Below, piece after piece: positions 49,255 to 58,487 of a DNA stretch of 64,000 nucleotides. The DNA lies in the IMG/VR virus record IMGVR_UViG_3300037541_000522, positions 1-64,000 of that record. The stretch is one strand, 5' to 3'. Origin of the DNA: a virus. The stretch's first letter is position 1. Each line of letters starts with the position of its first letter. A program made the translations under genes and the position numbers. The notes under the pieces were generated by a model. It was given only the letters and a program-made list of their open reading frames with translations, did no database searches and was not told the DNA's origin.

Positions 49255-49312
49255 CTCATTCTCCTCGGTTGAGCAAGAATTGTTAATAAAAATGCCAAAT
49301 GGCCATTTAAGT

Positions 49313-49615
49313 CCAGGTTTTCTGTTACGAGGATAACCTGGAACCCTAAGCCGAGTTTAGGCGGCTAATGCGAACGTTTCATCGTTTGCGTTTAGTTTGT
49401 TTGCTTCTCTAGCCGGGTAGTCCCAGCCCTACGGCTTCTGCATTGCCGAGTTGTCCATCTTCCTACTCTGCACCCTGTCGAAACCATGACTAGCCCATCA
49501 GAAACATTCTCACGGTTTATCTTTCCGTTCCCAAATACATGGACAAAAATGTTTCTGGTGGACCAGGCGGGAGTCGAACCCGCGTCCAAAGCACCTTTGG
49601 GTTAACTTCATACAA
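49313..49615 (-). ncRNA. ssrA: tmRNA, circularly permuted two-piece form
   Basis: On the minus strand the 3' acceptor piece comes first: T-arm GCGGG/CCCGC, strand CUGGUCC, A and CCA (ends 49556). After a 59-nt intervening loop the 5' piece starts at 49496 with GGGCTAG, which pairs over seven positions with CUGGUCC and includes the alanine identity G3-U70. The conserved GGTTTCGACAGG follows. The tag reading frame at 49389-49360 encodes ANDETFALAA then TAA (49359-49357). Flanking GAAACATT/AATGTTTC repeats in the loop extend the stem in the precursor. Outer ends are approximate: a hairpin at 49341-49313 closes the coding piece. It would rescue stalled ribosomes and tag peptides for proteolysis with host SmpB. 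Confidence 0.95.
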
Positions 49616-49795
49616 CTATATCTTCTTTTGCGTAACACTACAACTACCAACTAGGGTTTTACCTTTAGTTTCGTAGTCTAGTTTAAGTTTGGCTAGTGCT
49701 TGTTCGCACTCAGCTCTGCTAGAGTATGCACCTCTAGTTCCGTGCTCGCCGCCAGTGCCTAACACAGAAAATAGTATAATCCATACCCAAGCCAT
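49616..49795 (-). CDS. Small exported or membrane protein
   Basis: 59 residues from the ATG at 49795 (AGGATAAA upstream). N-terminal hydrophobic segment (MAWVWIILFSVLGTG) then a small domain with two cysteines (AECEQALAKL, GSCSV). Its stop lies next to the acceptor piece of the tmRNA. Confidence 0.6.
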   Translation of the reverse strand: MAWVWIILFSVLGTGGEHGTRGAYSSRAECEQALAKLKLDYETKGKTLVGSCSVTQKKI

Positions 49796-53212: not shown

Positions 53213-53313
53213 TGGTAGAAGGGGTGGGAATCGAACCCACATTAACTGCCTTATCTGGACAGTGCTTACGAGTTTATAAGGCTCGCCCTAAGGCCAATAT
53301 TAGCAACCCTTCC
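53213..53313 (-). tRNA. Aberrant class II tRNA, anticodon probably TAT
   Basis: 101 nt. Acceptor GGAAGGG/CCCTTCT (G1-T72), perfect T-arm GTGGG/CCCAC, encoded CCA. The anticodon stem GCGAG/CTCGT (G-T closing) leaves a 9-nt loop CCTTATAAA; the central triplet TAT would read AUA (Ile). The variable region is very long (about 28 nt with ACTG/CAGT). An alternative 7-bp pairing GCCTTAT/ATAAGGC would hide the anticodon. The anticodon-arm sequence is close to the phage's own tRNA-Tyr. Confidence 0.6.
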
Positions 53314-57094: not shown

Positions 57095-57412
57095 TTAATA
57101 ATAATATACGTGTGGTTTACGTCCTACTGCGGGCGGATCTACTAGCTCTAGGTCTGTGGTCTTGAGCACTGCGTGCTCCCATACACGGCCACGACGACGC
57201 TGTGGACGATTCATAGTAATACGAGTCCACCAGCTAGGTGTTGTGCTATACCAGCGAAAATGACAGTAGTTTCTACGCTTTTTAGTTTTCTTGCCCGCAA
57301 CTTGTATGTAACGAAAACCAAAGCTACTAGTATCTACACGAATAGCATCGTATAAGTAGTGATCTTCTGGATACGCTACAGTGTGCGGTTTATCTTTTAG
57401 AGTACGACTCAT
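57095..57412 (-). CDS. Small basic unknown protein
   Basis: 105 residues from the ATG at 57412 (GGAGATAATA upstream). Very Arg/Lys/Trp/Tyr-rich (KKTKKRRNYCHFRWYSTTPS, RPQRRRGRVW). Likely nucleic-acid binding; located immediately after the large structured RNA and its terminator. Confidence 0.65.
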   Translation of the reverse strand: MSRTLKDKPHTVAYPEDHYLYDAIRVDTSSFGFRYIQVAGKKTKKRRNYCHFRWYSTTPSWWTRITMNRPQRRRGRVWEHAVLKTTDLELVDPPAVGRKPHVYYY

Positions 57413-57420
57413 TATTATCT

Positions 57421-57464
57421 CCAAAAAACCATAGTTCAAATCACGAGTATGAGTTGAACTATGG
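57421..57464 (-). terminator. Terminator of the large structured RNA
   Basis: Minus-strand stem CCATAGTTCAA/TTGAACTATGG followed by TTTTTT. Confidence 0.92.
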
Positions 57465-57921
57465 CCCCACTCCCTAAAGTGGCTTCATAGTGTCTTGTTA
57501 CTATTGGGCGACGGCCCGCAGGTCTAGAATGTCCAGTTACGTAGTCCACCATCACTAGTAACTTTTATCGCCCTGTTGCGCGGTATAGTCTAGGGATACG
57601 ACTATGTAAGCGTGGCGGGAACTATTATATGCAGGTGCTCATTCCTGCTTGCTCTAGACTTCACTGTTCACGTTGTACAGTCGAATATCTTTACGGGGTA
57701 CGACCCCAGCCTAGTCACCAGCCTAGAGTTTATAGGTTCAGCGTGAGCAGCGCAATTACGGATGTTGACTAGAAATAAGTTTTCCCAGTTCAGGCTTTAG
57801 AGTGCCTTATCGGGCTAGTCAACAACCATATTGAAACACACTGTGGTCTATACATACTTTCCTTGAGAGGTATGTGGTGTACCAGCCCTGATCTTTTTAG
57901 GGATTTTAATGTGCTTCAATA

Positions 57922-58008
57922 TGGTGGATGCGGATGGATTCGAACCACCAGCGTTTCTAGTGTCACGAGTTTACAGCCCGCTGCCGTCAACCATTTGGCT
58001 ACGCATCC
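57922..58008 (-). tRNA. tRNA-Tyr(GTA)
   Basis: Class II. Acceptor GGATGCG/CGCATCC, loop CTGTAAA (GTA), encoded CCA. It is embedded between the two domains of the large structured RNA; its CCA end is part of a 15-bp stem in the precursor. Confidence 0.92.
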
Positions 58009-58191
58009 ATAGTAAAGTATTTTGCTTACTGCCTGCTCGCGCATGAGTTAATCTTCCTGCCATATGATCCCGCTAAGGATCGGCTACGATTAACTTCAGC
58101 CCGCTTTAGGGATATACCGGCCGGGTACCCTTATTTCTCTGGGCTGCAATGTCCTGTTTATTTCACCTAGGACGAACAAAATACTTAACTA

Positions 58192-58274
58192 TGGTGCCCT
58201 GGGACGGACTCGAACCGTCACGCTCGCGCACTGGCTTCTAAGACCAGCGTGTCTACCAATTCCACCACCTGGGC
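58192..58274 (-). tRNA. tRNA-Leu(TAG)
   Basis: Class II. Acceptor GCCCAGG/CAGGGC-type end, loop CTTAGAA (TAG), variable arm, encoded CCA. First RNA behind the tandem promoters. Confidence 0.92.
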
Positions 58275-58367: not shown

Positions 58368-58396
58368 ATTATACAGTATTAGTTAGCGTGAATCAA
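58368..58396 (-). promoter_or_regulatory. Sigma-70 promoter for tRNA-Leu/structured RNA
   Basis: -35 TTGATT, 17-bp spacer, -10 TATAAT. Second of two tandem promoters upstream of tRNA-Leu, tRNA-Tyr and the large RNA. Confidence 0.82.
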
Positions 58397-58458: not shown

Positions 58459-58487
58459 ATTATATCACGTTTACTGGTCTAGTGCAA
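58459..58487 (-). promoter_or_regulatory. Sigma-70 promoter (upstream of the pair)
   Basis: -35 TTGCAC, 17-bp spacer, -10 TATAAT with TG-type extension and AAATTT upstream. Located just after the UV-endonuclease stop; boosts transcription into the RNA unit. Confidence 0.85.

Follow-up and report, generated by a model that had tools for sequence, protein, structure and literature searches.

A modular structured RNA in a phage tRNA island that appears to represent an undescribed class

The locus and its fold

The window analysed here is a stretch of 64,000 nucleotides, positions 1 to 64,000 of IMG/VR virus record IMGVR_UViG_3300037541_000522. This 97.8-kb virus record carries a tRNA island on its minus strand, comprising 18 tRNAs called by ARAGORN and a permuted tmRNA. 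Within the island, 768 bases of the minus strand run from tRNA-Leu to a terminator-like helix ending at 57429, with tRNA-Tyr inside. As read from the sequence, this one strand holds promoter-like sites, tRNA-Leu, a 5' domain, tRNA-Tyr, a module termed M, a core and the terminator-like helix:

58459..58487, minus strand: upstream sigma-70-like promoter, TTGCAC-17-TATAAT (picked by eye; failed the promoter scan)
58368..58396, minus strand: sigma-70-like promoter, TTGATT-17-TATAAT (promoter scan, 10/12 matches)
58192..58274, minus strand: tRNA-Leu (UAG) (Rfam and ARAGORN)
58175..58194, minus strand: 5' strand of the tRNA-Leu CCA helix, starting with the CCA of tRNA-Leu
58027..58174, minus strand: 5' domain within the tRNA-Leu CCA helix (fold z -4.5; conservation in 8 relatives)
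58007..58026, minus strand: 3' strand of the tRNA-Leu CCA helix, ending in the first two bases of tRNA-Tyr
57922..58008, minus strand: tRNA-Tyr (GUA) (Rfam and ARAGORN; missing from L002 and L017)
57908..57924, minus strand: 5' strand of the tRNA-Tyr CCA helix, 17 positions
57826..57842, minus strand: 3' strand of the tRNA-Tyr CCA helix, 17 positions
57763..57826, minus strand: hairpin domain opening the 3' domain (minimum free energy fold; 57815-57826 pairs with 57763-57772)
57653..57753, minus strand: module M, in the order H1, UGAACCUAUAA, H2, GGUGACUAGG, H3, GUAAAGAUA, H4, H2'
57631..57648, minus strand: T-arm-like hairpin directly 3' of module M (permissive finder, run without a control)
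57429..57623, minus strand: core, from CCCG to the end helix, about 190 nt (model R1 matches 57451-57571)
57585..57605, minus strand: core helix P2, loop UCCCUA, complementary to the P7 loop
57536..57562, minus strand: core helix P4, loop GAUGGUGG at 57546-57553, which contains UGGU
57506..57519, minus strand: core hairpin P5, GGNN-YGUC-NNCC
57458..57491, minus strand: core helices P6 and P7, loop UUUAGGGA
57429..57464, minus strand: end helix P8, 57454-57464 with 57429-57439, its 5' strand doubling as the 3' strand of P6
57423..57428, minus strand: six T after P8, intrinsic-terminator-like (from the sequence)

The original prediction had described a large, densely structured RNA without open reading frames outside its tRNA, flanked by two tandem promoters and an intrinsic terminator. 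Both tRNAs lie where it had placed them, according to Rfam and ARAGORN, and the dense structure was borne out: folding of 57425-58192 (minus strand) gave a minimum free energy of -257.7 kcal/mol, compared to -213.2 +/- 5.9 for 20 shuffled sequences (z -7.5). Folded alone, the 5' domain from CCA to GG, closing helix included, reached z -4.5, and the 3' domain z -3.4. In this fold of the whole 768 nt, the 5' end is joined to the 3' domain, a pairing that was not adopted because the 20-position CCA helix of tRNA-Leu occupies the same 5' strand. No convincing reading frame is present in 57425-58192: on the RNA strand, the only ORF of at least 40 aa listed within the interval is a 42-aa frame running across tRNA-Tyr, and one TTG-start ORF begins within the end helix; the plus strand offers four short ORFs of 44-49 aa. 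The flanking signals fared less evenly. The promoter at 58396-58368 passes the promoter scan, which returned 5 promoter-like sites against 2.5 expected, but the one at 58487-58459 was recognized by eye only; likewise, the end helix and its six T are present as predicted, but were not listed by the terminator scan, which permits loops of 3-8 only.

Two neighbouring elements of the island deserve mention in their own right. The tmRNA of the window (49266-49676, minus strand) is permuted, encodes the tag ANDETFALAA according to ARAGORN and matches tmRNA_permuted and beta_tmRNA. Permuted tmRNAs also occur in L012, L017, L163 and L087, the last with the tag ANDEVYALAA. The tmRNA suggests a betaproteobacterial host, in agreement with Limnohabitans phage DC31, which reappears below. 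In addition, 53216-53313 (minus strand) matches the Rfam tRNA model with 39.9 bits and is left uncalled by ARAGORN.

Relatives of the RNA and helices at tRNA CCA ends

Relatives were collected by searching with the protein of the downstream gene (57095-57412), which returned seven loci, and by pattern scans, which added three more. Measured against the 768 query bases, identity is complete in L003 and L004 and amounts to 94.3%, 93.3% and 89.7% in L005, L006 and L007, respectively, and L002 holds the RNA in two pieces; in L008, a relative by its neighbour protein, the RNA was found neither by eye nor with the model. The pattern scans contributed L014 (5' part only), L016 (81%) and L017. BLAST with the window RNA gave zero matches against plasmids, and against phages the best 20 of 632 rows align at its tRNA portions.

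In 8 of 8 relatives, the 5' domain shares 97.8-100% identity with that of the window (identical in L003 and L014; over 149 of 183 bases in L002), and the tRNAs are 94-100% identical, leaving out an L002 hit to another tRNA; the 5' domain is conserved about as strongly as the tRNAs. For L005, L006, L007, L016 and L017, identity amounts to 78-95% in the 3' domain and 67-92% in those neighbouring genes that align, the genes falling below the 3' domain in each. L002 shows the reverse, its downstream gene being 100% identical to that of the window and its 3' domain 98.0%. The RNA had been predicted to be built around tRNA-Tyr, and this tRNA does lie inside it. However, L002 and L017 lack tRNA-Tyr together with its helix, read TATGG at the junction and retain both flanking RNA parts, and the core and M are found elsewhere beside other tRNAs or none.

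As judged by complementarity, the CCA ends of tRNA-Leu and tRNA-Tyr each start a long helix with downstream sequence. The helix of tRNA-Leu spans 20 positions with one mismatch, from its CCA into tRNA-Tyr, and encloses the entire 5' domain, and that of tRNA-Tyr spans 17 positions. Both an enclosing helix and a 3' stem using the tRNA-Tyr CCA end had been foreseen, but at lengths of 10 and 15 bp that need correction. In L007 and L016, both strands of the tRNA-Tyr CCA helix have changed and the pairing is retained; the tRNA-Leu helix and the 5' domain are too conserved within the window group for covariation there.

We tested 206 distinct CCA-ended tRNAs from 26 sources chosen for holding the core or M, accepting helices that start at the CCA and whose downstream partner strand ends in TGG, with up to one mismatch. 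Helices of at least 17 positions were present at 23 of 206 tRNAs versus 0 of 4120 shuffles (shuffle maximum 16), and those of at least 11 positions at 35 of 206 versus 171 of 4120, related phages being counted separately so that these events are not independent. The other 171 of the 206 tRNAs lack a CCA helix of at least 11 positions, and among the window tRNAs tested only tRNA-Leu and tRNA-Tyr have one of at least 17. A near-identical strand pair, CCATATTGAARCACAYT / AGTGTGTTTCAATATGG, recurs behind the tRNAs for Tyr, Lys, Leu, Glu, Gly, Pro and Trp in various phages. The remaining CCA helices have unrelated sequences, yet in 12 hand-picked pairs (CCA excluded) their own strands scored 11.4 of 12 for complementarity, compared to 5.7 after swapping. 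As a separate observation, L006 and L016 carry about 197 extra bases after tRNA-Leu relative to the window (L006:84-279 and L016:84-279), which in L006 begin with a new CCA helix of their own; insertion of a module is a possible origin.

The core and module M

BLAST with the 3' part alone returned Limnohabitans phage DC31 at E 2, and the homology of the DC31 core was established only by later alignment and model, not by this match. Aligning DC31 with the 3' end of the RNA provided motifs for wider scans, which yielded 62, 60, 21 and 23 stretches, mostly chance matches in the first two scans; on inspection, 19 distinct core loci were kept and near-duplicates set aside. The core alignment comprises 18 of these loci, L118 being left out for an insertion. 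Across the 18 loci, 97.0% of the cells of a 22-pair structure are paired and 13 of the 22 pairs show compensatory changes on both sides. The covariation score was 0.439 compared to 0.162 in shuffles, with slid partners reaching at most 0.064, and when five covariation measures were considered, 0 of 500 shuffles reached four of them and 3 of 500 the fifth. Covariation among homologues, on which the original prediction had staked its claim, is present in the core.

A model of the core, R1, matched 24 of 34 sources, namely all 24 expected and 0 of 10 others, and found L118, which had been left out of training, at E 7.8e-10. Each of 16 out of 16 records holds a single confident copy, with one extra match at E 0.41. 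Applied to 34 loci of module M, R1 located new copies in L156 (E 5e-18), L163 (E 1e-15) and L145 (E 2e-9), a fourth match standing at E 0.69, which brings the total to 22 distinct core loci, Limnohabitans phage DC31 among them. By BLAST, the DC31 core retrieved itself and otherwise chance rows only, among 5, and L039 gave zero matches; L092 retrieved DC31 (E 1e-5) as well as 8 phages that match its hammerhead part. A core scan of genome contigs produced 3 chance-like matches.

Within the core, the P2 loop UCCCUA is complementary to the P7 loop UAGGG(A), from which we infer that the two loops pair, both being nearly invariant and thus uninformative for covariation. The arms of P2 are paired at 5.2 of 6 positions within sequences versus 3.1 between them (9 distinct pairs), and one pair of P6 changes type between C-G, A-U and G-C. 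P8 measures at least 14 bp in 14 of 19 loci and 10-12 bp in 4, the L130 contig stopping 39 bases past the core. No shuffle out of 285 reaches 14 bp but 39 reach 10, and the four short P8 helices, including the 11 bp of the window, therefore rest on position and homology. P6 and P8 share a strand and are mutually exclusive at full length. The automatic choice of P6 was wrong for L009, L118, L124 and L130 and was replaced by the core alignment (for L118, by the model match only). As judged by eye, UGGU in the P4 loop is complementary to tRNA ACCA ends, and AUGGUGGA in the window is complementary to the tRNA-Tyr end UCCACCA plus the following base U.

Other small elements were seen near the core. 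Between a 5' domain and the core, L033 (from 671), L092 (from 8335) and L106 (from 6669; all 0-based) hold a hammerhead-like core consisting of CUGAUGA, stem II arms that differ but pair, and GAAAC, followed downstream, as seen by eye, by GGGUA before a strand matching stem I. Rfam Hammerhead_3 scores it below threshold in L033 (E 0.012) and L092 (E 0.031), possibly explained by a long stem III loop. Another hammerhead-like core lies on the minus strand of L014 near oriented position 2969, about 11 kb upstream of the RNA, in a locus whose tRNA-Leu region is identical to that of the window. On either strand of the window, the hammerhead pattern (CUGAUGA, stem II, GAAA core) occurs zero times, and RF00008 has no match at E <= 1 in the window's record. 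In L079, a tRNA-like sequence ending in CCA (L079:5327-5420) lies between tRNA-Arg and the core and is uncalled by ARAGORN.

Module M was traced by its box, TGAACCTATA...GGTGACTAG, taken from window positions 57711-57740 and common to L087. Scanning viral contigs for this box gave 43 stretches with matched lengths of 29-32 bases, 34 of them new; the new contigs represent 29 distinct sequences of 34 and are up to 524 kb long. Because the M alignment is out of register in its 3' arm, strand-swap tests were used in place of a pair count. H2, which holds the M boxes, differs in sequence across most lineages, and its own arms score 7.24 of 8 compared to 3.73 after swapping (sd 0.22, maximum 4.29 in 200; n=34), with a slight bias since own arms were picked from 3 offsets, and with the H2 of L087 apparently mis-assigned and entering the test with the same doubtful strand. 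The loops of H3 and H4 form 2.90 Watson-Crick pairs in their own combination versus 2.03 when swapped (maximum 2.45 in 300), some H3 and H4 stems having been chosen greedily.

The order of the two parts varies: the core precedes M in L087, L156, L163 and L145 and follows it in the window group. A called tRNA or tmRNA overlaps M or lies within 600 bases of it in 19 of 36 M loci, three of these being the same doubtful tRNA-Gln call overlapping M, for which Rfam has no match in the two scanned. By exact pattern, M was found in 1 of 12 records, namely the window's own; because the DC31-like, L033-like and L039 records lack it, we regard the RNA as a family of modules and not as one fixed molecule. 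The pattern was absent from 398 genomes sampled from one bacterial phylum and from 3 in another scan, BLAST with L176 gave 4 rows, all chance, and with L148 the best 20 of 566 rows match the tRNA part. A permissive finder, run without a control, reported a T-arm-like hairpin followed by an NCCA-like end in about 10 of 30 M loci inspected, and a canonical T-arm at M in L146 and L175. As a lead only, M may derive from a tRNA whose anticodon arm was rebuilt, or may imitate one.

Interpretation and comparison with known RNAs

At gathering level, cmscan with Rfam 15 recognized only tRNA and tmRNA in the window, in 10 core loci and in 14 of the 34 new M loci. For the locus itself at E <= 5, the scan returned tRNA and chance hits only, with no tmRNA, T-box or GOLLD match, in line with the suggestion that this may be a new class. 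Relaxed-E scans of DC31, L092, L033, L087, L124, L156, L163, L176, L171 and L039 revealed only tRNA, tmRNA and sub-threshold hits, hammerhead included. Membership in GOLLD or ROOL, which had been considered, is not supported: neither GOLLD (RF02032) nor ROOL (RF03087) matches the window's record at E <= 10. The GOLLD model matched 2 of 11 records, below cut-off, and 5 of 14 control genomes, none above cut-off. One of these stretches, in a 524-kb record (G419 contig 1: 472966-473176, equal to L179:2467-2677), is GOLLD-like with 44.7 bits and E 3.1e-11, below the gathering score; its own fold is unremarkable (z -1.4), and the M box was not found in the surrounding 7 kb. Because this sub-threshold stretch was found, the GOLLD search was not blind. 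ROOL matched 0 of 11 records at E <= 10, an absence that is less firm because the 14 control genomes were also silent and sensitivity is thus not shown; HEARO likewise had no match in the window's record, nor in its controls. A word-based search of titles and abstract openings, which leaves most subscription journals uncovered and is weak evidence, found no published account of these motifs.

We put the probability at about one in two that the locus encodes a new class of large structured phage RNA, made as part of the tRNA-island transcript, in which the CCA ends would first be locked and M and the core would then persist. The parts of this reading stand at different levels. A conserved structured RNA is almost certain, homologues and covariation placing it beyond chance, and the class is very probably absent from Rfam 15; by their sequence changes, the core and M are evolutionarily maintained RNA structures. 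That its role is that of a GOLLD/ROOL-like non-coding RNA has, by analogy, roughly even odds. Locking of tRNAs through their CCA ends, which the complementary strands suggest, is a tentative proposal with somewhat worse than even prospects. In the nascent transcript, each CCA helix would bury a tRNA 3' end in a duplex, and the tRNA would stay locked in a folded precursor until nucleases release it, RNase P acting at the 5' ends and RNase III, or some other nuclease that cuts duplexes, within the helices. The CCA end would be hidden because the helix, if it forms, occupies it, the purpose being guesswork; since a buried CCA cannot be aminoacylated, locking would need such a release step. The 3' RNA, comprising M plus core, would persist afterwards as a stable non-coding species whose loop-loop contacts (P2-P7 in the core, H3-H4 in M) keep it together. 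By analogy with GOLLD and ROOL, it might serve as a scaffold or container that is produced with the phage tRNAs. P6 would form first and be displaced by the longer P8, which may double as terminator in the window phage.

The strongest competing account takes the folded sequences for spacers of a tRNA precursor, leaders and trailers that guide processing and are then degraded, leaving no product of their own. Two tRNAs do share a single apparent transcription unit, the CCA helices start exactly at tRNA 3' ends, and the core sits close behind a tRNA in DC31, L118, L124 and L130. However, conservation and covariation extend beyond the tRNAs: the stretches examined in L033 (1.7 kb) and L106 (9.3 kb) contain the core and no tRNA, the nearest tRNA in L092 is more than 4 kb from the core, L002 and L017 keep the RNA without tRNA-Tyr, and M stands alone in L171 and L176, closed by its own 12-bp outer helix. 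The 5' domain, moreover, equals the tRNAs in conservation. Because of this conservation, the covariation, the varied surroundings and the loss of a tRNA without loss of the RNA, we favour an RNA of its own and consider the spacer account unlikely.

Alternatively, the core could be a cis-acting attenuator, perhaps tRNA-sensing, with P6 as antiterminator, P8 as terminator and a UGGU loop reading ACCA in the manner of a T-box. Reuse of the P6 3' strand by P8, the length of P8 relative to shuffles and the invariance of UGGU in the P4 loop (18/18 aligned members) would all suit such a switch, and a U-run follows P8 in 6 of the 18 loci with the end present, namely 5 of 7 window-group members and L106. 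The U-run is missing in the other 12 of 18, including L016 and L017 of the window group, so that the attenuator would suit most window-group members and leaves these 12 loci unexplained. Downstream of the core lies a gene with a ribosome site, tRNA-Glu, tRNA-Met, or M plus tmRNA, and these differing neighbours between groups again favour an RNA of its own. L156 keeps its model match yet reads UAGC in place of UGGU, the pairing potential with neighbouring tRNA ends was judged only by inspection, and Rfam reports no T-box at the locus (E <= 5), which together make the attenuator decidedly unlikely.

Insertion of mobile inverted-repeat elements at the CCA ends of tRNAs, with RNA folds as by-products of their terminal inverted repeats, would account for the strand pair CCATATTGAARCACAYT / AGTGTGTTTCAATATGG being nearly unchanged after seven tRNA types in different phages, for the presence or absence of tRNA-Tyr plus helix between TATGG repeats, and for the roughly 197 nt extra after tRNA-Leu in L006 and L016. 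We nevertheless hold this idea to be improbable, as complementarity is kept in CCA helices whose sequences are unrelated (own strands 11.4/12, swapped 5.7) and the enclosed domains carry covariation of their own. A divergent GOLLD or ROOL RNA missed by the models, to which the tRNA island, the tRNA between 5' and 3' domains and the loop-loop contacts would point (PMC12286853), is very improbable and largely refuted by the window's record having no GOLLD match in the search that found the E 3.1e-11 stretch, and by the ROOL result in 11 records, though the ROOL controls were silent too.

Returning to the preferred reading of a new RNA class, a more elaborate form of it, speculative enough that we would sooner bet against it, is a modular RNA system. 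Here, CCA ends would be clasped into helices of 17-22 positions that surround structured RNA domains, with swappable clasp strands connecting tRNAs, together with a tRNA-like M in which a kissing-hairpin domain replaces the anticodon arm and a core with exclusive helices. The clasps would store tRNAs, hide their CCA tails from exonucleases and from tail-cutting defence nucleases, and let them go when needed. Cas12a3 is known as a defence nuclease cleaving the CCA tails of tRNAs (PMC12851939), and phage tRNAs have been reported to escape defences directed at tRNAs (PMC10264068, PMC11555353). If true, CCA locking would link phage tRNA islands to host defences that attack tRNAs, including the tail-cutting Cas12a3, and if confirmed, the greater novelty would lie in the CCA helices and in the tRNA-like M. 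The RNA also offers an independent comparison for GOLLD and ROOL, sharing their tRNA-island setting with no match to their models in the window's record. Its modular make-up, with the core alone, M alone, and with or without tRNA, makes the question testable in pieces, and M and the core provide two compact motifs for annotating further phages.

Several known systems share features with this RNA. Permuted tmRNA of the betaproteobacterial type (RF04321 / RF01850) resembles it in having tRNA-like parts, since M may end in a T-arm-like hairpin plus CCA, and in L087 the core and M lie upstream of a permuted tmRNA, with M 118 bases away; in the window, however, the tmRNA is a separate gene at 49266-49676. 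The hammerhead (RF00008) has its likeness in the hammerhead-like core 5' of the RNA core in L033, L092 and L106, and none in the window. In T-box leaders, a UGGN bulge reads the tRNA ACCA end, and competing helices lie near the terminator. Similarly, a UGG-bearing loop could here pair with the tRNA CCA end, with competing helices near a terminator-like end; unlike the T-box, it is a hairpin loop and not an antiterminator bulge, and it has no common downstream gene and no Rfam match. GOLLD is characterized by a homo-oligomeric nanocage. According to the published account, GOLLD is phage-encoded, with many members longer than 800 nt, lies near tRNA islands and has separate 5' and 3' regions, sometimes with tRNAs in the linker, and ROOL, also large, phage-borne and close to tRNA islands, has conserved kissing loops, both being described as of unknown function (PMC12286853). 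By that description, the window RNA is GOLLD-like in its phage tRNA island and in its 5' and 3' domains with a tRNA in the linker, and ROOL-like as a large phage RNA with a tRNA-island setting and loop-loop contacts. Setting, layout and loop-loop contacts are thus those of GOLLD and ROOL, but their models have no match in the window's record, for ROOL in none of 11 records at E <= 10, and, unlike in GOLLD, core and M are each a short module that recurs on its own, and CCA helices extend to the flanking tRNAs. The class appears undescribed and resembles GOLLD and ROOL only as a kind of thing: the RNA stands beside them in kind, in neither family.
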